DNA from: Flavivirga amylovorans
GTDB taxonomy: Bacteria > Bacteroidota > Bacteroidia > Flavobacteriales > Flavobacteriaceae
DNA length: 64,000 bases
Direction of reading: 5' to 3'
Assembly (NCBI RefSeq): GCF_030540875.1
Contig: NZ_JAUOEM010000002.1
Span: 216,926-280,925 of the forward strand
Shown: piece after piece, positions 51,584 through 63,211 of the stretch
Layout of the letters: every line of letters begins with the position of its first letter
Numbering within the stretch: position 1 is the first letter of the stretch
Made by a program: the position numbers and the translations under genes
The notes under the pieces: model-generated
What the model saw: only the letters and a program-made list of their open reading frames with translations
Database searches by the model: none
Told to the model about the DNA's origin: nothing

Positions 51584-52672
51584 TTATTGCAGCAAACTAT
51601 AAACAAACTCAGGGTATCCACGTACTCCATCTTCATTTGTTAAAGCTAAAAATTGTAGCTTGTAAAGGTTTCCGTCAGTATCATTTACAACATAAAAAAC
51701 AGTTGTTTTTAAAGAAGGTAAGCTTCCTGGTCCCCCACCATTTCTCCAACTACTTCCAATACTACGTTGGTCTGAAGTAAAATTACTTTCAACAATATCT
51801 GCTAATGTAAAATCAGCATAAGTTAATGTGTTATCAATCTCAGTATCTATCATGTATACTTTTGCATCAGCTTTAGCATTGTTAACTACAAAATCGGAAT
51901 AACCATAAGAACCAAACCCTTCAATTTCGTTTGTAAAAACGGTAAAGTTTAAATCCCAATTTTCCTTTTCTGGTTCTACATTAATTTTATCTTTAGTATC
52001 GAAGCTGAAAAAAGTATAATTATAATCAGAATTTTTAGATATAGTTATTTCTTGGTGCGTTGTAGCATCCAAATCTGCATATTGTAGAACATAATCACTG
52101 CCATTTTTTAGAACTCGAATTTTTTTCCATCCTCTTGAAATACCTGAAATAGCTACACTTCCTGTAGATGGGGTTTCTGTTCCTACCTTATAACCTAAAT
52201 TCAATAAGTAAACGTTGTTATTAGCATCTGTATTAGAAATTTCGTCAATAGCTGTATTGGTAATTGTACCATCTGGAGCATCTACATAAGCTTTGTTTGC
52301 ATCATCAAAAGTACCAACAGCTACTTGAGGCTGTAAATCTTGTACTTCTGTAGAAGTTGAATTTATGGCATCTATATCTGTTGCAGATAGTTTAGCAGTA
52401 GCCATATAGATAGATCCGTTAATTATAACTCTAAAGTTTGTCCCTGAGTAAAACCCCAGATCCCACGAATCTCGTTGTACAGTTGAAGAGGTATTACTAC
52501 TTAAATCAATATAGACTTGATTTTGTTGGTTAGGGCCTCCAACACTTGGAGATACTGATGCACCTTCAATTATAACTTTGATAGGCTCGGTTGGTCCATC
52601 GTCATTAGTACTACAACTAGTAAAAGCTAGAACAGTAGTACATAGAATAAGGGTTAAAAATTTGTTTAACAT
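51584..52672 (-). CDS. HmuY family heme-binding-type lipoprotein
   Basis: 362 residues. The lipobox cysteine is in LAFTSCSTN (Cys20). HmuY-type fold cues: VYIDLSSNTSSTVQRDSWDLGFYSG, a central region with W and repeated beta strands, and ENWDLNFTVFTNEI. Family members hold heme at the cell surface and pass it to a TonB receptor. The gene follows the TonB receptor by 11 bp on the same strand, matching hmuR-hmuY order in reverse gene naming. Heme ligands cannot be assigned. Confidence 0.85.
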   Translation of the reverse strand: MLNKFLTLILCTTVLAFTSCSTNDDGPTEPIKVIIEGASVSPSVGGPNQQNQVYIDLSSNTSSTVQRDSWDLGFYSGTNFRVIINGSIYMATAKLSATDIDAINSTSTEVQDLQPQVAVGTFDDANKAYVDAPDGTITNTAIDEISNTDANNNVYLLNLGYKVGTETPSTGSVAISGISRGWKKIRVLKNGSDYVLQYADLDATTHQEITISKNSDYNYTFFSFDTKDKINVEPEKENWDLNFTVFTNEIEGFGSYGYSDFVVNNAKADAKVYMIDTEIDNTLTYADFTLADIVESNFTSDQRSIGSSWRNGGGPGSLPSLKTTVFYVVNDTDGNLYKLQFLALTNEDGVRGYPEFVYSLLQ

Positions 52673-52683
52673 AATTAGTGATT

Positions 52684-54816
52684 TTAAAATTTAAGATTAT
52701 ATAATAGTTTTAAGTAATATGAACGGCCATAGCCCAATAAAAGCCCACTATTATTTAAAGAATGAATAGCCCCATTTCCAGAGCTACTAACATTTACATT
52801 AGTAACATCTAGTAGGTTTCTAGCTCCAACTGTGGCTTGAATTGCGTTATCGAAAAAAGATTTTTTTATAGAAGTATCTAACCAGTTATAGGCATCAGTA
52901 GTCGTTTTAGAAAACAAAGAATTTCCATTAGCATCCGTTCCTACAGCACTATAGTTTTGTTGTTTTCCGTTGTGTTTTAAAAGAACTGTTACTGCTGTTT
53001 GCCATTTTTTAATTTGATACGTGCCACTGGTATTAATTTGTACAGCATAAAGAAAGTCATCTTCAGAGTTTAATTCATCATTAGCTATTTGAGAAATACC
53101 TTGTAGTGTAGCCCCTAAATTAAACGTCCAATTATCAGTTTTCAAACTGTTTTCTGAAGTAATTCCCCATAATTTGTAAGCGTCAATGTTTATGTATTGA
53201 AACTGTAAAGGTGTATTGTTAACAATAGCTAGATCAATTTTATCCTGTAAATCGATATAGCTGATCTTTAGGGTATTTATAAGTGAAGTATTTTTAAACC
53301 AATTGCGTTTTTTAAAGTTTACAAAAGCAGTGAAACCATTTTCTGGATTCAGATTTTCATTACCTCTTACATCATGATTACTATCTACGAAATAATAGTA
53401 AAGTTCTTCAAAATTTGGTGTTCGGTAGGAGGTACCAATGTTTCCTCGTAGCTCAAAACCATGTTTCATCAAATAGCGTGCGCTTATTGAACCTAAAAAT
53501 TTTGATTGAAATTGTGAATTATATTCATAACGCAAGCCGGGGCGTAATAGAATTTTATCAGAAAGATTGATTTCTGAAGAACCAAATAAGGCATAATTAT
53601 TTTGAGACTGTTCTTTGTCTTGTTGTGTAATAGCTCCCGAAGCTTGTGTGTCAAATCCTTTTATTAGGCGAGTTTCATAGCCCAGCTGAAAGTTATAAAA
53701 GTTATTTTTAACCAGATTATTGATGTTTCCTTTTGAAAAAAACACCTTGCTAGACTGATACACTTCGTCAGTCTCATTGCTCCTCTCTTCAGTAACGATG
53801 AAGTAATTAAATTCGTTTAAATGACGCTTTTGTTGCTGATAAGAAACAGAAGCATTGTAATTCACTCCAGAATTTAACTTACCGTTTACGCTCAAATTAT
53901 TAACGAATCTATTGGTTGTAAAAATTCTATCAGTTGCAGATGGGTTACTTGTTTGTGATTGTGTATCTATATTAGCTCTAACTGCTGCATCGTGATAATT
54001 TATAATTTCATTGAAGTAATCAAACTTATAAAATAGTTTAAAGTTCTCTTTACTATAGTTTAGTAATGCGTTAGTGTTTATTTGTGTTTTAGGCAACCAA
54101 TCGTAGCCCCTTAAACCATCATTTTGATAATGGTTTTTTCCTTGTCTATCATTATAAAACCCAGCAAATTGATTTCTGTTAACACCAGCCCTAGCAAACC
54201 AATTTTTTTTGAAATTATGACCAATGTTTAGGGCTTGTATATGTCTACCTTTGTTAAACCAAGCATACTCATCACTTACCGTTTCTTCTTGTATAACTGT
54301 TTGAATTTTCCATTCACTACTAATTGTCTTTTTGGTTATAATATTAATAACGCCAGAAACAGCATTGGCTCCATATTCAACCCCCATAGCACCTTCAACG
54401 ATCTCGATACGTTCTACATCATCAAGATTTATTTGTGTTAAATCTATATTGTTTCCAAGTCCGCTATCGCTTACTAGCGGAATATTATCGACCAGAATAT
54501 TGAAGTATTGAGCGTCTAAACCAAAAAAAGAAATAGTTGATTTTCCAGTTTGCGCATTCGGAATGATAGTTAAGTTTAAATTGAAATTTAATAGGTCCGC
54601 TAAATTATTAGCTGCCTGATTTTCAATTTGCTCTCTTTTTATTACAATAACGTTATGAACCGATTTCTTTATAGATTGCGGATTATATTGTCCAGTAACA
54701 ACAACCTCTTCTAAACTATTAACTTTTACTGAATCTTGTTTTACTTCTTGAGAAAATATCAGGCAAGAAAAAAAAATTGAAAAATAAATGCCGAAATAGT
54801 TTTTATTTAGAATCAT
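52684..54816 (-). CDS. TonB-dependent receptor (heme/iron type), partner of HmuY
   Basis: 710 residues. Signal peptide to about residue 22, TonB-box-like SLEEVVVTGQYNP, plug domain (NNLADLLNFNLNLTIIPN, VERIEIVEGAMGVEYGANAVSGVINIIT) and a 22-strand-type barrel ending in a terminal phenylalanine (LLYNLKF). There is no carboxypeptidase-like N-terminal domain, unlike SusC types. Transcription starts at a TATATTTG box overlapped from upstream by a dyad, so repression by an iron regulator is likely. Confidence 0.93.
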   Translation of the reverse strand: MILNKNYFGIYFSIFFSCLIFSQEVKQDSVKVNSLEEVVVTGQYNPQSIKKSVHNVIVIKREQIENQAANNLADLLNFNLNLTIIPNAQTGKSTISFFGLDAQYFNILVDNIPLVSDSGLGNNIDLTQINLDDVERIEIVEGAMGVEYGANAVSGVINIITKKTISSEWKIQTVIQEETVSDEYAWFNKGRHIQALNIGHNFKKNWFARAGVNRNQFAGFYNDRQGKNHYQNDGLRGYDWLPKTQINTNALLNYSKENFKLFYKFDYFNEIINYHDAAVRANIDTQSQTSNPSATDRIFTTNRFVNNLSVNGKLNSGVNYNASVSYQQQKRHLNEFNYFIVTEERSNETDEVYQSSKVFFSKGNINNLVKNNFYNFQLGYETRLIKGFDTQASGAITQQDKEQSQNNYALFGSSEINLSDKILLRPGLRYEYNSQFQSKFLGSISARYLMKHGFELRGNIGTSYRTPNFEELYYYFVDSNHDVRGNENLNPENGFTAFVNFKKRNWFKNTSLINTLKISYIDLQDKIDLAIVNNTPLQFQYINIDAYKLWGITSENSLKTDNWTFNLGATLQGISQIANDELNSEDDFLYAVQINTSGTYQIKKWQTAVTVLLKHNGKQQNYSAVGTDANGNSLFSKTTTDAYNWLDTSIKKSFFDNAIQATVGARNLLDVTNVNVSSSGNGAIHSLNNSGLLLGYGRSYYLKLLYNLKF

Positions 54817-54834
54817 TCTTAATTAAATTTGCTG

Positions 54835-54844: not shown

Positions 54845-54871
54845 TCTTATTTTAATTCAGTCTAAATAAGA
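54845..54871. promoter_or_regulatory. Dyad operator candidate between the two iron operons
   Basis: TCTTATTT - 11 bases - AAATAAGA, perfect 8-bp arms, in the 104-bp divergent region. It sits between the -7 and -33 positions of the leftward promoter and upstream of the rightward one, the place for a shared repressor such as a Fur- or DtxR-type iron regulator. Regulator identity is inferred. Confidence 0.55.
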
Positions 54872-54920: not shown

Positions 54921-55826
54921 ATGAGACAATTATCGATTTTTTCACTATTAATTCTAGCTTTTTCAATGCATGGAAATGCTCAAAGCAAGAAAAAACAAGA
55001 TGCAGAAGCCATTAAAAAAATGTGTGGATGCTATGAAGTGACTTTCAATTTTGCAGAAACCTTTAACTATAGTGAAGACTCACTTTACAAGCCATCTAAA
55101 ACAAAGAGGGATAAAGGTCTGGAGTGGGCACAATTGGTTGAAGATGATAAAAACAAAATAGCTATTCAGCATATTCTTCAAGTGGGAGATTCTTCTAAAC
55201 CACATATTGTAAAACATTGGAGACAAGATTGGCTTTATGAGAATACTGATTTTTATATGTTTAATGGGGATAACACTTGGAAATATGTTTCTAAGCCAAA
55301 ATCTGAAGTTAAAGAGCAATGGACTCAAAAAGTATATCAGGTTGACGACAGTCCAAGATATGAAGGTACAGCAACTTGGGTGCATGTAGATGGTAAGAGT
55401 TATTGGGAAAACATAACGGATGCACCATTACCAAGACGTGAATATACTAAACGAAGTGATTACAATGTAACCGTTAGAGGCAACCGCCATGAGATTACTA
55501 AAAATGGCTGGGTACACGACCAGGATAATGCTAAAGTAATTCGTGAAGATGGAAAATCAGATGTGATTTTGGCAAAAGAAAAAGGTTATAATACGTATGT
55601 GCAAGTTGATGACAGTAGGTGTAAGGCTGCTGCAACTTGGTGGAAGGAAAATCAAGGAAAATGGGCTTTAGTACGTGCCAAATGGTCTGATGTTTATAAT
55701 AGAAATCAAAACTTAGCATTAGAACCAAAAGTTGAAAATAAACAGCTTTATAAATATTTGTTTTCTGATGATTACAATAAAGCTGATGACATAAATAAAG
55801 TGATAGAATCTTTTGTAAAAAAATAA
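54921..55826 (+). CDS. DUF6607 family secreted protein
   Basis: 301 residues with signal peptide (FSMHGNAQS). The motif CGCYEVTFNFAETFNY lies just after it, with blocks rich in Trp (KHWRQDWLYEN, NTWKYVSKP, TATWVHVDGKSYWEN, AATWWKENQGKWALVRAKW). These fit DUF6607, a family seen near TonB receptors for iron. Function unknown; perhaps a periplasmic substrate or degradation protein. First gene of the 7-gene iron operon, followed after 30 bp by the receptor. Confidence 0.82.
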   Translation: MRQLSIFSLLILAFSMHGNAQSKKKQDAEAIKKMCGCYEVTFNFAETFNYSEDSLYKPSKTKRDKGLEWAQLVEDDKNKIAIQHILQVGDSSKPHIVKHWRQDWLYENTDFYMFNGDNTWKYVSKPKSEVKEQWTQKVYQVDDSPRYEGTATWVHVDGKSYWENITDAPLPRREYTKRSDYNVTVRGNRHEITKNGWVHDQDNAKVIREDGKSDVILAKEKGYNTYVQVDDSRCKAAATWWKENQGKWALVRAKWSDVYNRNQNLALEPKVENKQLYKYLFSDDYNKADDINKVIESFVKK

Positions 55827-55856: not shown

Positions 55857-58283
55857 ATGAAAAAAATACTATCAATATTACTACTTAGTTGTGGTATTAT
55901 ACACTTTGCTTACAGTCAGGCAACACTTAAAGGAATTGTGAAAAGTAATACGAATGAAGCTATTCCATATGCAAGTATATCTATCAACGGTGCTAAACTA
56001 GGAACCAATGCATCAACCGATGGTACTTTTACGATTAATAATGTGCCTTTTTCCACGTATAAAATTATTATAAGTGCTGTAGGTTATAAAAAAACCATAC
56101 AAGAAATTAATGTAAATGGTGATCTTTTGGATATCATATTCATACTAGAAGAAGGTGATGAATTAGACGAAATTGAACTTTTTGGTTCAAGAAATAAAAG
56201 GGCAGAAAAACTTGAAACACTTACAAGGTTACCTCTTGCTCCCAATGAACAATTGCAAAGTATTTCTATTCTATCGAACAAGCTTATTGAACAACAAAAT
56301 GCTTTAACACTTAGTGATGTTACCAAAAATGTTGCCGGTGTTTACACCTTTGCTACTTACGGAAATATTAGAGAAAGCATGTCTTTAAGAGGGTATAGAG
56401 GCATTCCATTACTTAAAAATGGTGTTAGAATTAATTCTGATTTTAGAGGCATAGGCGTTATTACAGATATGGCAGGTGTCGATAATATCCAGGTACTAAA
56501 AGGAGTATCAGCTATTAGTCAAGGTTTGGGAGGTGATTTAGGTTCCGCGGGAGGTGTTATTAATATCGTTACAAAAACACCTAAATTTTACGATGGTGGT
56601 GAAATAAGTTTAAGAGCCGGTAGTTTTGGTATGGTACGACCTGTATTTGATTTTTATGGGCCTTTAGATAAAAAGAAAACAGTGGCTTTTAGAGTGGCAG
56701 GTTCTTACGATAGAGCAGATAGTTATAGAGTAAAAGTAAATTCAGAACGTTTTTACATCAACCCTTCAATTGCCTGGAAACCTAACGATAAAACCAAGAT
56801 CTTTTTTGAAATGGATTATATGGATGATAGTAGAACTCCAGATCAAGGCACTATTAATTTAGGCGATTATGCGACCAATAATATTTTGAAATTACCAGAC
56901 AATAAATTTTTAGGCTTTGAATCGGATAGAGCGAATAGTGTCAATACAACCTATGCGGTAAGATTCGAAAGAGAAATTAATGATCATCTAAAAATTAAAG
57001 GTGGGTACTTTGCTTCAGATTTAGAAACCTATAGCGAAACATCTTATGCATTTGAAGGTGGTGGAAGAACTGGTTTGCCAGAACTTGCAAGTACGCAACG
57101 ATATAGAGAATACTATGCAGATGGAAGAAAAGATAAAAATAGTGTACTGCAAATAGATTTAGTAGGCAAAGATGTAAAAACAGGAGCTTTAAAACACACA
57201 TTTCAAGTTGGGATAGATTATAGAAATACAAATTTCGATAACACGGCATATATAACCACATATCCAAATACTGATGCCTATATAGATATTATTGATGTTA
57301 ATCAGCCTATAAATAATATATTGCCAGAAGGTGTTTCTGTTGCTCCAAATCCTGCCAGGGCATCAGGGTCTCAAACAAAATCTTATGGGTTTACAATTCA
57401 AGATAAAGTTTCAATAACCTCATGGGCAGATGTGTTTTTAGGTATTCGCTATACCTCTTTAGAGCGCACCAAAGGAAACTTTATTGGAAGAAGCTTAACA
57501 GGAGCAAAAAGAGATGACGCGTTTAATCCTTTAATGGGATTCAATATAAAACCTATAGAAAATATTATAGTCTTCGGATCGTATGCCAGCAGTTCAAATC
57601 CTATGACCTCATTTTATAGAGATATTGATGGTAATGAATTAGGAACAGAACGTTGGGATCAATTTGAAACAGGTATAAAATCGACATGGTTTGATAAAGC
57701 CTTGCGTTTTAATGTTACTTATTTCTCTACTTATAGCAAGAATTTAAATTTAGAAGCTATTGACGCAGCTGGAACCTTTTTAGGGTATTATTTAAAGGGA
57801 GGAGAAGATACCAGAAGTGGTGTTGAGGTTGAATTAATAGGTCGCATATTGCCAAATTTAGAGATCATAGGAGGCTATTCTTATTTAGATGCCAAGTATA
57901 AAGACCATATATCGTATTACTTTAACTCCAGTCCTATTAACACACCAAAGCATACAGCAAATTTATGGCTACACTATGGATTTAAGAACGTTCTAGATGG
58001 ACTGTCTTTAGGTGCAGGAGCTTATTATTTAGGAGAGCGGCCACATAATGTATGGTCTAGAAACTATACCCATACGGGAGTCGTTCCAGGTGTTAAACCA
58101 TTCGATTTAAAAGCATATACAACGGTAAACGTGCAAGCGTCCTATAAGTTTAATAATGCTTTGAGTTTAGATGTTTTTGGGAATAATATTTTCAATGAAT
58201 TAGGATTTAACGCCTATAGAACAGTATACATTAATAGAATACAGCCAGCTAGTTTTGGAAGCACCCTACGCTATAAATTTTAA
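55857..58283 (+). CDS. TonB-dependent siderophore-type receptor with carboxypeptidase-regulatory-like domain
   Basis: 808 residues. Signal peptide (1-20), a CarboxypepD_reg-like domain (about 22-96, ATLKGIVKSNTNEAIPYAS), TonB-box region (DELDEIELFGSRN), plug (QNALTLSDVTKNVAGVY, SMSLRGYRG, VDNIQVLKGVSAI, GGVINIVTKTP) and a barrel ending STLRYKF. The plug pattern 'GV....... R...RG' and FNELGFNAYRTVY near the end are typical of ferric-siderophore receptors. The exact ligand is unknown. Confidence 0.93.
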   Translation: MKKILSILLLSCGIIHFAYSQATLKGIVKSNTNEAIPYASISINGAKLGTNASTDGTFTINNVPFSTYKIIISAVGYKKTIQEINVNGDLLDIIFILEEGDELDEIELFGSRNKRAEKLETLTRLPLAPNEQLQSISILSNKLIEQQNALTLSDVTKNVAGVYTFATYGNIRESMSLRGYRGIPLLKNGVRINSDFRGIGVITDMAGVDNIQVLKGVSAISQGLGGDLGSAGGVINIVTKTPKFYDGGEISLRAGSFGMVRPVFDFYGPLDKKKTVAFRVAGSYDRADSYRVKVNSERFYINPSIAWKPNDKTKIFFEMDYMDDSRTPDQGTINLGDYATNNILKLPDNKFLGFESDRANSVNTTYAVRFEREINDHLKIKGGYFASDLETYSETSYAFEGGGRTGLPELASTQRYREYYADGRKDKNSVLQIDLVGKDVKTGALKHTFQVGIDYRNTNFDNTAYITTYPNTDAYIDIIDVNQPINNILPEGVSVAPNPARASGSQTKSYGFTIQDKVSITSWADVFLGIRYTSLERTKGNFIGRSLTGAKRDDAFNPLMGFNIKPIENIIVFGSYASSSNPMTSFYRDIDGNELGTERWDQFETGIKSTWFDKALRFNVTYFSTYSKNLNLEAIDAAGTFLGYYLKGGEDTRSGVEVELIGRILPNLEIIGGYSYLDAKYKDHISYYFNSSPINTPKHTANLWLHYGFKNVLDGLSLGAGAYYLGERPHNVWSRNYTHTGVVPGVKPFDLKAYTTVNVQASYKFNNALSLDVFGNNIFNELGFNAYRTVYINRIQPASFGSTLRYKF

Positions 58284-58292
58284 TTTGAGACA

Positions 58293-59786
58293 ATGAATAA
58301 ATTAAAAACAGTACTGCTAATGGTTTTGCTTGTAAATGTTTTACAGGCCCAAACAAAAAACATTTTTTTAAGTAGAGAATTCTGGAAAACATCCCCAAAA
58401 ATAGAGATTGTAGAGCAAAAAATTAAAGAAGGCCATAATATTTCAGAACTCAATCAATATGGGTTTGATGCTGTAGTATATGCCATATTAGAAAAAGTAC
58501 CTAACACCCTAATTAAGTATTTGCTTTCAAAAAAAGGGAACTCGGTTAATAAGCTTACTCATGATAAGAGAACTTATGTTTTTTGGGCAGCCTATGCGAA
58601 TAATGTTGAGTTAATGGCTTATCTCATAGATAGAAATGCGAGAATGGATTTAAAGGATGCTCATCATTTTTCAGTATTAACATTTGCCGCAGCTACAGGT
58701 CAAACAAATAAACAAATTTATGATCTATGTATAAAAAACGGCATCGATATTAAAAATGATAAAGATGAACATGGTGCCAATGCATTATTATTGATTGCTC
58801 CCTTTCTTAAGGATATAACACTAATAGAATATTTTACATCCAAGGGCATAGATATTCATAGTACTGACGATATTGGTAATGGTATTTTTAATTATGCAGC
58901 AAAAAATGGCAATATAGAAATAATGAAACGCTTAATTAAGTTAGGTGTTTCATACAATACACTAAATAATGAAGGCGGCAATGCTATCATTTTTGCGAGC
59001 CAAGGTACCAGACAACACATTAATTCTATAGAAACTTTTAAATATTTAGAGTCTTTGGGAATTAATTCAAATGTTACAACTACTAAAGGTGTAACGCCTT
59101 TACATGCTTTGGCATATAGAAGTAAGGATATCTCGACATTTAATTATTTTATAGATAAAGGCGTAGATGTTAATCAAGCTACAAGTGATGGTAATACTCC
59201 TTTTTTAAATGCAGCAAATAATAATACAATTACTATTGTTTCTCATTTATTCAAGCAGGTAAAAAACATCAATTTTACAAATAAAGATGGTAAATCTGCG
59301 CTCACAAATGCAGTATATAAGAATAGTATTGACGTTGTTGAGTTTCTTTTAAAGCAAGGAGCAGATACTTCTATTAAAGACAAAAACGGGAACAATCTTA
59401 CATACTATCTTTTTAAAAGTTTCGATTTAAAAAACATAGATACATTCAATAAAAAGTTAGCCTTGCTTATCAAGCACAATTTGGATTTAAAGGAGACTCA
59501 AGGAAATGGAGATACGCTATTTCATTTAGCATTAGAAACAGGTAATTTGGATTTATTAAAACGTGTAAATACTATGGGAATAAATATAAATACTAAAAAT
59601 AATGATGGGATTTCCCCTTTGCAAGAAGCAGTTATGAAAGCCAAAGACGATACTGTATTAAAGTATTTATTGTCCGTTGGCGCAGATAAAACTGTTAAAA
59701 CCGATTTTGATGAAACAATTTATGATTTAGCAAAAGAAAACGAATTGCTCAAAACTCATAATATCGATATTAATTTTTTAAAATAA
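58293..59786 (+). CDS. Secreted ankyrin-repeat protein
   Basis: 497 residues. Signal peptide (1-20, VNVLQAQ), then about 10-12 ankyrin repeats from residue ~45 to 490 (YVFWAAYANNVELMAYLIDRNARMD, GVTPLHALAYRSKD, GKSALTNAVYKNSIDVVEFLLKQGADTS, GISPLQEAVMKAKDD). Ankyrin repeats bind proteins. An exported version in an iron operon suggests a periplasmic scaffold or regulator for the receptor or reductase. Gaps of 9 and 6 bp to the neighbours. Confidence 0.9.
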   Translation: MNKLKTVLLMVLLVNVLQAQTKNIFLSREFWKTSPKIEIVEQKIKEGHNISELNQYGFDAVVYAILEKVPNTLIKYLLSKKGNSVNKLTHDKRTYVFWAAYANNVELMAYLIDRNARMDLKDAHHFSVLTFAAATGQTNKQIYDLCIKNGIDIKNDKDEHGANALLLIAPFLKDITLIEYFTSKGIDIHSTDDIGNGIFNYAAKNGNIEIMKRLIKLGVSYNTLNNEGGNAIIFASQGTRQHINSIETFKYLESLGINSNVTTTKGVTPLHALAYRSKDISTFNYFIDKGVDVNQATSDGNTPFLNAANNNTITIVSHLFKQVKNINFTNKDGKSALTNAVYKNSIDVVEFLLKQGADTSIKDKNGNNLTYYLFKSFDLKNIDTFNKKLALLIKHNLDLKETQGNGDTLFHLALETGNLDLLKRVNTMGININTKNNDGISPLQEAVMKAKDDTVLKYLLSVGADKTVKTDFDETIYDLAKENELLKTHNIDINFLK

Positions 59787-59792
59787 TAACAG

Positions 59793-60281
59793 ATGAAGCG
59801 TATTAAAACAATTAAAATAATATCACTTCTTATGCTTTTTATGCTATTAGGGTTTAAAAATAAAGCAGAAACCACAACATATAAGTGCATGATCCAAATG
59901 ACGAATTATTCTGGAGAAGGGGCTTATGTTATTATTTCATTATTAAATCCAGAAGGCAAATATGAAAAAACATTATACGTGCAGGGAGATGATGATGAAT
60001 GGTATTCTGAAATAACAGCCTGGTGGAAATTTCAAGGAAAAAGACGGACAGATATTGATGCCATAACAGGAGCAACAATAAGTGGTGGCGGGCGTATGAT
60101 AAGTGTTATCGAGATTGAAAATAGCAAAATAGATACGGGTTATAAAATACGTTTTGAAACCGCTGTGGAAAATCAGGAATATTATAAAGATGATGTAGAA
60201 TTTGAGCTTACATCCGAAACCATAAAAAATAAAATAGAAGGAACAGGCTTCATACGTTACGTTCGTATGATGGCACAATAA
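59793..60281 (+). CDS. DUF2271 protein, candidate flavinylated periplasmic electron carrier
   Basis: 162 residues. N-terminal signal or anchor (8-21). The domain matches DUF2271 (MTNYSGEGAYVIISLLNP.GKYEKTLYVQGDDDEWY). It contains D89-A-I-T-G-A-T95 (DIDAITGATISGG). D-x-x-[TS]-G-A-[TS] is the acceptor motif that ApbE-type enzymes use to attach FMN through phosphothreonine in NqrC/RnfG and FMN-binding domains, so Thr95 is the predicted site. Located immediately before the PepSY-flavin reductase (11 bp), it could take electrons from it. I infer flavinylation; it is not shown. Confidence 0.85.
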   Translation: MKRIKTIKIISLLMLFMLLGFKNKAETTTYKCMIQMTNYSGEGAYVIISLLNPEGKYEKTLYVQGDDDEWYSEITAWWKFQGKRRTDIDAITGATISGGGRMISVIEIENSKIDTGYKIRFETAVENQEYYKDDVEFELTSETIKNKIEGTGFIRYVRMMAQ

Positions 60282-60292
60282 AAAGATCCCAA

Positions 60293-62485
60293 ATGACCAT
60301 TTCTATATGGAGATATAGCCACCTTACTTTGGCTATATCTTCTTCTATATTCATATTATTAGCAGCCTTAACAGGTATAGTTTTAGCGTTTGAACCTATT
60401 TCAAATCAGCTAAAACCTTATGCTGTAAAGCATGCTGATGCCCTTTCGCTTTCTAAAACCGTAGAAAACCTACAAGCTGAATATGATGAGGTAATACATG
60501 TAGAAAAGGATAAAAACAATTTTGTAATAGCTTCTGTTATTACAAAAGACGGCAAAAATGAAACCTTTTATATAAATCCATTTACTGCTAAAAAAATAGG
60601 CGATATTATTGAAAAAGCACCATTTTTTAAATTTGTTACCAATTTACATAGGTCATTGTTTTTAAAGTCTACAGGAAGGGTTCTTGTAGGTTTTATATCC
60701 TTTTTACTCTTTTTAATGGCCGTTACTGGTGTGTTTCTAATTATTAAGCGACAAGGCGGTGTAAAACGTTTCTTTTCAAAAATGATTAAAGAAAATTTTA
60801 ATCAGTATTACCATATCATTATTGGAAGGTATGTTTTAATACCTATTGTAATAGTTACGCTTTCGGGCGTTTATTTATCGTTGGAAAAGTTTTCGTTATT
60901 GCCATCAGAAAAAAAACCACATGACATAAATGAAGAACTTTTAGTAGGAACACCTAAAATAAAAGTTCAGGATTTCAGTCTTTTTAAAACCCTTACTTTA
61001 AATGATATTCAGCGTGTTGAATTTCCTTTTTCTGATGCTATTGAGGACTATTTTGTTTTAAAGCTTAATGATAAAGAATGGCTTGTAAATCAATATAACG
61101 GAGCCATAATAAGTGAAAAAAAACAAAATTTGGTAGCTTTAGTTTCAAGTTGGAGTATGCTATTACATACAGGCCAGGGTTCTATAATGTGGTCTGTTAT
61201 TTTGCTGTTAACTTGTATTGCTATCTTGTTTTTTATGTTTTCGGGGTTTGCTATGACACTAAACCGCAGAAAAAATAGTATCAAAATTAAAAACAAATTT
61301 AGCAAAGACGCTGCTGAGTATATTATTTTAGTTGGTTCGGAAACAGGAAGCACTTATGGTTTTGCAAAAGCTTTGTATAAAGCTTTAATTGCAGAAGGTA
61401 AATCGGTATTTGTTTCAGAATTAAATGCGTATTCCAGCTATAAAAAAGCAGAACATTTGGTGGTATTTACATCTACTTATGGGGATGGAGAGCCTCCCAC
61501 AAATGCAAAGAATTTTGAAAAATTGGTTGGTCATGTTTATCAGAACAAGATCCTTAAGTACTCCGTTGTTGGTTTTGGTTCTTTAGCTTATAAAGGCTTT
61601 TGTAAGTATGCTATTGTGGTAGATTCTTTATTGCAACTACACCAGAAGTTTATTCCGAATTTATCCCTTCATAAAATTAATAACCAATCTTTTGACGCTT
61701 TTAAGGACTGGGCATCTTCGTGGAGTAAAAACAAAGGCTTAAATCTAAAAATTGAAAAACCTGTAAACACACCTCAGCCTAAAAATTCAAAATTATTTAA
61801 AGTGGTTAGCAGATCTATGGTTAATTCCGATAACTCTTTTTTGCTTGAATTAGAGCTTGCCCAGAAGTTAAAATTTAACTCTGGAGATTTGTTTAAAGTA
61901 TATCCAAAGAACGAACAAAGAGAACGTTTATACTCTATTGGTAAAATAAATGAAAATATAGTATTAAGCATTAAAAAACATGAGTTCGGAGTATGCTCAG
62001 GTTATTTTAGTAAACTTAAAAAAAACGATATGGTACTAGCAGATATAAAACAAAATAAAGATTTTAATTTTCCTGTAAATGTGAAAGAAGTCGTTATGAT
62101 TTCTAATGGGACGGGGATTGCACCATTCTTGGGGATGATTAATAATCAGGATTCTAATTCTGTAAAATCACATTTGTTTTGGGGTGGACGGACGAAAGAT
62201 TCTTATCAAATCTATTCAGAATTAATAGATAAAGCTTTTTATAGCAAAAAACTATCTGGACTTTACATTAGTTTTTCAAAAGAGGAAAGTCAAAAAAGAT
62301 ATGTGCAAAATTCAATAGTAGAAAAAAGTGATTTAATATCTCGGGTATTAAAAAGTGATGGTGTTATTATGATTTGTGGATCAATAGCTATGCAAAACGA
62401 TGTTCTGGAAACATTAGAAAGTATCTCTGAATCTAAATTGAATAGGCCTTTAAATCTAAATCAAATTAAAACAGATTGTTATTAA
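60293..62485 (+). CDS. PepSY-TM / flavodoxin / NAD(P)H reductase fusion (ferric-substrate reductase)
   Basis: 730 residues. Membrane helices are near 11-33, 128-150, 173-195 and 297-319, with His10, His119, His174 and His292 at helix ends, good candidates for two b-heme ligand pairs. The periplasmic PepSY-type segments lie at ~40-118 and ~200-290. A flavodoxin domain starts at ~343 (LVGSETGSTYGFAKAL; STYGDGEPPTNA). A ferredoxin-reductase-like FAD/NAD(P) module occupies the last ~230 residues (RLYSIGKI, VMISNGTGIAPFLGMI, MICGSIAMQNDV). It moves electrons from NAD(P)H across the inner membrane. Its context with a siderophore receptor and DUF2271 supports ferric-siderophore or heme reduction. 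Confidence 0.9.
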   Translation: MTISIWRYSHLTLAISSSIFILLAALTGIVLAFEPISNQLKPYAVKHADALSLSKTVENLQAEYDEVIHVEKDKNNFVIASVITKDGKNETFYINPFTAKKIGDIIEKAPFFKFVTNLHRSLFLKSTGRVLVGFISFLLFLMAVTGVFLIIKRQGGVKRFFSKMIKENFNQYYHIIIGRYVLIPIVIVTLSGVYLSLEKFSLLPSEKKPHDINEELLVGTPKIKVQDFSLFKTLTLNDIQRVEFPFSDAIEDYFVLKLNDKEWLVNQYNGAIISEKKQNLVALVSSWSMLLHTGQGSIMWSVILLLTCIAILFFMFSGFAMTLNRRKNSIKIKNKFSKDAAEYIILVGSETGSTYGFAKALYKALIAEGKSVFVSELNAYSSYKKAEHLVVFTSTYGDGEPPTNAKNFEKLVGHVYQNKILKYSVVGFGSLAYKGFCKYAIVVDSLLQLHQKFIPNLSLHKINNQSFDAFKDWASSWSKNKGLNLKIEKPVNTPQPKNSKLFKVVSRSMVNSDNSFLLELELAQKLKFNSGDLFKVYPKNEQRERLYSIGKINENIVLSIKKHEFGVCSGYFSKLKKNDMVLADIKQNKDFNFPVNVKEVVMISNGTGIAPFLGMINNQDSNSVKSHLFWGGRTKDSYQIYSELIDKAFYSKKLSGLYISFSKEESQKRYVQNSIVEKSDLISRVLKSDGVIMICGSIAMQNDVLETLESISESKLNRPLNLNQIKTDCY

Positions 62486-62496
62486 TATAAAAATGT

Positions 62497-62850
62497 ATGT
62501 GCAATAGTATAAGGACAATAGCAAAAGTAACTAGTGGAGAACTTTCAATATGTGAGCAATGTAATGTCTATCATGTTGAGTTTAATAATATTTATTTTGA
62601 ATTTACTCCAAATGAGTTTGATCATTTTAAAGACTATCTTTTAAACATCGAGTTGGATTATTGGGAAGAAAGATATTCTTGCGCAAAGGTTAAAAGAAAA
62701 ATCCCCATTCCGTCAATGCAAAAAAACCTGGTTTTAATGTTCAATAGACAAGAAATAAAAGAATTGAAATTACTTTTTTGTGGAGAAGAATGTGGTTTTG
62801 AAAATGTATTATATGCTAACGATATAGATTATAAATTGATTTTAAACTAA
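62497..62850 (+). CDS. DUF6686-like Cys-rich small protein, copy 1
   Basis: 117 residues, no signal peptide. Cysteines at 2, 19, 22 (CEQC), 62, 95 and 99 (CGEEC) could bind a metal. Blocks NVYHVEFNNIYFEFTPNEFDHF and KRKIPIPSMQKNLVLMFNRQEI match my recollection of DUF6686. Function unknown. In the iron operon, 11 bp after the reductase. It may sense or store iron, by inference only. Confidence 0.7.
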   Translation: MCNSIRTIAKVTSGELSICEQCNVYHVEFNNIYFEFTPNEFDHFKDYLLNIELDYWEERYSCAKVKRKIPIPSMQKNLVLMFNRQEIKELKLLFCGEECGFENVLYANDIDYKLILN

Positions 62851-62857
62851 TTAAAGC

Positions 62858-63211
62858 ATGGACGATATAAACACGATTTACTATAATGATTTTGGAATCG
62901 CTTTCCACTGGAAAAGATGTGCTGTTAAAGATTTTAAGAAGATTCAATTAGTCTTTAGAGACACAGGGTTATTACTAACGTCCCATGAATTGCTATTATT
63001 CTCTGAAAACATAGATAGATCTTTAAACAGAAACTGTTCATGTATAGATTGTATAGAATATAAAACTTGCAAATTGTTGGTTGAAGCTCCAAATCCGCAA
63101 ATGACTTTCGCCATGACTTACACAGAAATAAAAGACATACAAGATTTAGTAAAAGGAACTTTATTTCAAATGGGATTAAATAAGATACTTAGCGATAATA
63201 CAATTAAATAG
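62858..63211 (+). CDS. DUF6686-like Cys-rich small protein, copy 2
   Basis: 117 residues, same length and plan as the preceding gene (FRDTGLLLTSHELLLFSENI aligns with the FTPNEFDHFKDYL region; TYTEIKDIQDLVKG with NRQEIKELKLL). It has a different cysteine set: 21, 60, 62, 65 (CSCIDC) and 71. A diverged tandem duplicate. It ends one base before the convergent cvpA stop. Confidence 0.65.
   Translation: MDDINTIYYNDFGIAFHWKRCAVKDFKKIQLVFRDTGLLLTSHELLLFSENIDRSLNRNCSCIDCIEYKTCKLLVEAPNPQMTFAMTYTEIKDIQDLVKGTLFQMGLNKILSDNTIK

Follow-up and report, generated by a model that had tools for sequence, protein, structure and literature searches.

A predicted ApbE-flavinylated DUF2271 protein beside a PepSY flavin reductase in Flavivirga amylovorans

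The DUF2271 protein of Amantichitinum ursilacus is flavinylated by its own ApbE in E. coli, and replacement of the motif Thr by Ala abolishes the modification (Meheust et al. 2021, PMC8238504). The same survey reports 3220 PepSY-like clusters, of which 2833 include DUF2271, together with 1077 PepSY-like genes that carry an NAD-binding domain, and it proposes iron reduction as a role for PepSY/DUF2271 clusters. DUF2271-type genes have been tied to iron in Alteromonas (PMC7190382) and in Caulobacter, in which the CCNA_03155-03159 operon (flavin reductase, PepSY, DUF2271 and DUF4198) is described as iron-responsive and as affecting fitness under chelation (PMC11870441). In the PepSY ferrisiderophore reductase FoxB, two haems are reported to be held by conserved histidines (PMC13038864).

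Here we describe a related gene cluster in a 64,000-nucleotide stretch of the F. amylovorans genome (the window). The features considered are as follows.

51584-52672, minus strand: HmuY-family protein, encoded after the divergent receptor gene
52684-54816, minus strand: divergent TonB-dependent receptor, sharing the intergenic region with the Fur-box-like site
54805-54823, plus strand: Fur-box-like palindrome ATTTAGAATCATTCTTAAT, matching the Riemerella Fur box ATTTAGAATTATTCTAAAT at 17 of 19 bases
54921-55826, plus strand: DUF6607 protein, encoded by the gene that opens the cluster (Pfam; recurrence in related loci)
55857-58283, plus strand: TonB-dependent receptor that most related clusters lack; its nearest solved relatives are the siderophore receptors FhuA and FoxA
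58293-59786, plus strand: ankyrin-repeat protein of 497 aa with a signal-like N-terminus, a near-constant partner (Pfam; related loci)
59793-60281, plus strand: DUF2271 protein of 162 aa with an ATG start, predicted ApbE substrate (Pfam match; reported flavinylation of a homologue, PMC8238504)
60057-60077, plus strand: codons of the flavinylation motif DAITGAT, residues 89-95
60293-62485, plus strand: reductase of 730 aa, PepSY_TM with flavodoxin and FNR-like parts (Pfam; alignment)
62497-62850, plus strand: small DUF6686 protein (Pfam; related loci)
62858-63211, plus strand: 117-aa protein without a Pfam match, recurring next to DUF6607
63213, minus strand: Colicin_V protein (Pfam)

A PepSY_TM gene (PF03929) lies beside the DUF2271 gene, and PepSY-like flavinylation clusters are recognized by such a gene next to one for DUF2271 or another ApbE substrate; apbE and DUF4198, frequent but non-obligatory members of such clusters, are not part of this one, and DUF4198 was found in none of the eight window proteins covered by the Pfam scan of the cluster region. 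The protein shares with its A. ursilacus counterpart the Pfam family, the [S/T]GA[S/T] core, a Thr in the acceptor position and membership in the PepSY-cluster family for which iron reduction was proposed. It differs in context: the A. ursilacus gene is described with a cognate apbE in its cluster and DUF4198 as a frequent partner (PMC8238504), whereas here apbE lies elsewhere in the genome and the partners are a DUF6607 protein, an ankyrin protein and a FhuA-like receptor. The Caulobacter operon likewise pairs PepSY with DUF2271 but includes DUF4198, and the word ankyrin does not occur in the text that describes it (PMC11870441). With FoxB and HiuB, as reported (PMC13038864, PMC13001220), the reductase has in common PepSY_TM, conserved histidines, here candidate haem ligands, and a probable siderophore receptor nearby; unlike them, it includes a flavodoxin-FNR part for electron input and has a DUF2271 protein as its partner.

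The DUF2271 protein and its neighbours

The protein encoded at 59793-60281 matches Pfam DUF2271 (PF10029) with 135.2 bits against a cut-off of 27.3, over profile positions 2-135 of 136, and thus scores above the family's gathering cut-off across the whole domain. A preliminary description of this DNA, made from its letters and open reading frames, had singled out DAITGAT at residues 89-95 as an exact match to the ApbE acceptor motif, with Thr95 as the prospective acceptor. The translation bears this out: the residues fit the consensus D-x-x-[S/T]-G-A-[S/T] reported for ApbE-flavinylated proteins (PMC12052999). Among 200,000 shuffles of the protein, D..[ST]GA[ST] appeared in 124 and the exact heptapeptide in 1, and the pattern occurs in no other of the 59 window open reading frames of at least 100 aa; taken together with the Pfam match and the position of the motif, this confirms the observation.

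Read by eye, the N-terminus consists of basic residues followed by a hydrophobic stretch at about residues 9-21, which resembles an export signal and might instead be an uncleaved anchor. In AlphaFold models, the motif falls within a loop of pLDDT below 50 that connects a short helix to a strand, and a second run with 49 alignment rows modelled this loop no better; such a low-confidence loop is compatible with an accessible acceptor but does not prove one. A fold search of the PDB with the model returned nothing at E <= 0.001 (the best matches, C2 domains, reached 7.3e-3 with a TM score of about 0.4), and no credible relative emerged when PDB sequences were searched with a profile. Cys32, at a position that is not lipobox-like, does not vary among the 31 rows of our first alignment, described below, and is replaced by Ile in two loci of a broader sample (L163 and L165).

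The same description had placed a trans-membrane flavin reductase directly after the DUF2271 gene, as is the case: it starts 11 bp downstream and combines PepSY_TM, Flavodoxin_1 and NAD_binding_1 domains, and its C-terminal half resembles cytochrome P450 reductase, the reductase of nitric oxide synthase and sulfite reductase alpha. His10, His119, His174 and His292 are invariant in all 28 aligned reductases of at least 600 aa; these four are candidate ligands, in pairs, of two haems. The receptor at 55857 gave 128 bits with FhuA and 119 bits with FoxA in a comparison with solved structures. In the open PMC literature, we found no report on DUF6607 or on an ankyrin protein together with DUF2271, nothing relevant on ankyrin with ApbE and, among the matches listed, nothing relevant on ankyrin with PepSY.

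Conservation of the motif, the cluster and a Fur-box-like site

The first sample comprised 119 genomes, including the source genome, of which 30 carry DUF2271 in 31 copies. D..[ST]GAT is present in 30 of these 31 rows and was kept down to 47% identity; the exception is the second DUF2271 copy of one genome (L091 in G012), which reads DAIVGET and still retains Gly93 and Thr95. The preliminary description had named loss of the motif from DUF2271 proteins next to PepSY reductases as the observation that would speak against it; in the alignment, all 29 first-sample proteins with an adjacent reductase have D..[ST]GAT.

DUF2271 and the reductase go together almost without exception. The reductase adjoins DUF2271 in 29 of the 31 loci (all except L064 and L091) and, counted genome-wide, occurs in 30/30 genomes with DUF2271 as opposed to 1/89 others, the single case being a fragment at a contig edge (G026); in one genome (G033), the reductase is unlinked. 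The ankyrin gene accompanies 27 of the 31 loci, DUF6607 22 and the same high-scoring receptor 7. Across the 119 genomes, the ankyrin protein is found in 28, namely 27 of the 30 with DUF2271 plus G026, and DUF6607 is more broadly distributed than DUF2271 (35 genomes). In three of the loci that have DUF6607 without DUF2271 (L112, L113 and L117), it lies beside a TonB receptor and an HmuY gene.

A second set was formed from the best 80 of 478 relatives obtained by a scan of genome contigs, drawn from Flavivirga, Algibacter, Aquimarina, Winogradskyella, Polaribacter, Tenacibaculum and similar genera and from unplaced Flavobacteriaceae, Flavobacteriales and Bacteroidia bins. As their selection was based on similarity to the window's own group, these loci are uninformative about distant DUF2271 proteins, and as they overlap the first sample in some species, the two sets are not independent. 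Of these best 80, 76 carry D..[ST]GAT, whereas 4 (L212, L238, L243 and L255) read D..[ST]GET; the reductase accompanies 79 (the other, L216, being a short stretch), the ankyrin gene 78 and DUF6607 77. The change of Ala to Glu in the motif thus recurs in four loci with intact reductases as well as in L091, which weakens the idea that the odd motif of L091 marks a dead orphan copy. Either ApbE tolerates Glu at this position or the loop has another role.

Upstream of the cluster lies ATTTAGAATCATTCTTAAT, which of all sites in the window comes closest to the predicted Riemerella Fur box; promoters with that box are reported to have bound Fur in EMSA (PMC5609570), and we treat ATTTAGAATCATTCTTAAT as a candidate site. 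Among the closest relatives, it is retained in 11/11 upstream regions aligned; of the 17 regions scanned, the six that belong to other genera do not have it in this form. In the second set, 72 of the 77 loci with DUF6607 match at least 15 of the 19 Fur-box bases ahead of that gene; among 1600 random stretches of 250 bases from these loci, 39 do. The site lies between divergent genes and may therefore act on one receptor, the other or both. The same intergenic region contains a second strongly conserved stretch, TTATTTTAATTCAGTCTAAATAA (54847-54869), with a poorer fit to the Fur box.

Genome-wide enrichment of the Fur-like pattern was rejected, with 12 matches compared with 14 for a reversed control, and with two mismatches allowed the window holds 16, no excess over a chance mean of 16.4. 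In a post hoc reading, 4 of the 9 genomic places of the pattern adjoin iron, haem or Fe-S genes.

ApbE supply and the acceptor residue

The preliminary description's reading of motif and reductase is supported, but it did not mention that the cluster has no apbE. We found none in any of the 31 first-sample loci, within fetched flanks of about 7 kb on most sides and less at contig ends, nor within the fetched stretches of the best 80 of 478 relatives. The source genome does encode two ApbE proteins, on contigs C8 and C10, with N-termini that, judged by eye, look signal-like and lipoprotein-like, respectively, so that extracytosolic ApbE is predicted in the same genome. The C8 gene (L093 in G000:C8) sits between a thioredoxin-like gene and a gene for DUF3570, a type of protein reported as an ApbE substrate (PMC8238504). 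The C10 gene, of Nqr type, lies about 8 kb from that for NqrC (C10:204208-204498), the only FMN_bind match of the genome. NqrC belongs to an ApbE-substrate family and reads DAIAGAT, close to DAITGAT; it differs from the window protein in being FMN_bind rather than DUF2271 and part of the Na+-NQR.

In the first sample, ApbE is present in 30/30 genomes with DUF2271 and 77/89 others (Fisher p 0.036, shared ancestry ignored). ApbE is so common among these relatives (107/119) that its presence barely discriminates at family level; we judged this association too weak and repeated the comparison in a phylum sample of 296 genomes, in which 22 have DUF2271 over the cut-off. There, ApbE occurs in 22/22 genomes with DUF2271 and 170/274 without (p 8e-5, shared ancestry again ignored), and the ApbEs whose N-termini were read appear export-like.

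Relatives with a single ApbE bear on which enzyme might act. Exactly one is present in 15 of the 30 DUF2271 relatives; it is of the C10/Nqr type in 15/15, and in 12 of the 15 it has nqr genes within about 10 kb (a contig end cuts L103). If DUF2271 is flavinylated in these genomes, the Nqr-type ApbE must do so. Given that the cluster lacks apbE, this lipoprotein-like enzyme probably serves DUF2271 in trans.

From the phylum sample, the 20 over-cut-off loci not included above were fetched, and two ApbE-DUF2271 fusions (L162:6281-7789 and L164:7177-8688) were left out of motif counts, leaving 18 stand-alone loci. In the fusions, a form also mentioned by Meheust et al. 2021 (PMC8238504), the motif of the DUF2271 half is changed (SITSAT and AIAGAT). 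Of the 18, all have the reductase, 17 the ankyrin protein and 14 a local ApbE. Every one of the 18 DUF2271 proteins carries [ST]GA[ST], with Ser as acceptor in 15 and the leading Asp absent from 13. The 14 loci with a local ApbE all read [SD]A[KIV]TGAS, Asp-led in one, and the four without read DAITGAT, DAVTGAT, DGITGAT and DGISGAS. Pooling the stand-alone loci of the first and phylum samples gives D..[ST]GAT in 33/35 without a local ApbE and the Ser form in 14/14 with one. The cluster-borne enzymes of these 14 loci are of the C8, DUF3570-associated type. In the reductase tree, the 14 form one clade (100/100) with one change, which makes the pairing of acceptor and ApbE one event in evolution and no more than a correlation; as the tree is midpoint-rooted, gain and loss of the local apbE are inseparable.

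These patterns suggest a joint reading that we offer tentatively and consider somewhat more likely to fail than to hold: DUF2271 would have a lineage-specific acceptor code matched to the ApbE that modifies it, and an exported ankyrin protein would be a dedicated partner of the iron reductase. On this tentative reading, D[AG].[ST]GAT would be served by an Nqr-type ApbE in trans in most sampled Bacteroidota, including the window, and the clade with a DUF3570-type cluster ApbE would have switched to [SD]A[KIV]TGAS with a Ser acceptor, while the ankyrin protein would perhaps dock a siderophore, haem or the receptor.

Proposed electron path and its alternatives

Our explanation of the locus as a whole, to which we assign a probability of about 0.8, is that the DUF2271 protein is an FMN-bearing periplasmic carrier, flavinylated in trans and fed by the reductase through haems, that reduces ferric iron. 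After export, a periplasmic ApbE would take FMN from FAD and bond it to Thr95 in the DAITGAT loop. On the cytosolic side, the reductase would draw electrons from NAD(P)H via FAD and FMN; these would cross the membrane through two haems held by the four invariant histidines and be handed to the FMN on Thr95 in the periplasm. The reduced flavin would then act on ferric iron, for which a siderophore or other chelate imported by the TonB receptors is the most likely ligand, and the resulting ferrous iron would enter the cell.

The protein could be flavinylated and reduced by the PepSY protein as proposed, with the electrons going to copper reduction, haem handling through the divergent HmuY protein and receptor, or repair of oxidized periplasmic proteins. 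PepSY_TM proteins are described as diverse, CrpH among them acting in copper supply (PMC13038864); an HmuY gene and a receptor are the divergent neighbours here, and the same two kinds of gene adjoin DUF6607 in three of the loci without DUF2271. We nevertheless consider a purpose other than iron unlikely, given the FhuA/FoxA-like receptor within the cluster, the candidate Fur-box-like promoter site and the iron links reported for DUF2271 clusters of Caulobacter (PMC11870441) and Alteromonas (PMC7190382). About as unlikely, at roughly one chance in five, is that the C8 enzyme beside DUF3570 flavinylates the window protein in place of the Nqr-type ApbE: half of the DUF2271 relatives (15/30) have no second ApbE and yet keep the Thr motif, and C8-type cluster enzymes accompany the Ser motif, although it is to the C8 type that the cluster-borne ApbEs of the 14 phylum-sample loci belong.

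Least probable of the three, in our view, is that DAITGAT is a conserved structural loop of a beta-rich domain that goes unflavinylated in this lineage, the dedicated apbE being missing from the cluster. That absence, the GET variants beside intact reductases and the persistence of Gly93 and Thr95 in L091 would all fit such a loop. Against it stand the retention of the ApbE motif down to 47% identity, the occurrence of ApbE in every DUF2271 genome examined, with export-like N-termini in those read, and the reported flavinylation of a homologue (PMC8238504). Flavinylation of this protein is a well-supported prediction, and it is already published for another member of the family.

Because DUF2271 flavinylation and its loss on Thr-to-Ala replacement have been reported (PMC8238504), the prediction is of a known kind, and what is added here (ApbE in trans, the acceptor switch, the ankyrin partner and the Fur-like site) is modest and testable. 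With it, a flavinylated family known from the literature gains a cluster that is headed by a Fur-box-like site and widespread in Flavobacteriaceae, with Thr95 as a concrete residue prediction. The ankyrin protein emerges as an uncharacterized, near-constant partner of the DUF2271/PepSY reductase pair, and the joint switch in motif and ApbE type could be used as a natural model for the study of ApbE substrate choice. For the organism, the arrangement suggests that one house-keeping ApbE may modify the Nqr sodium pump as well as a system for iron reduction.
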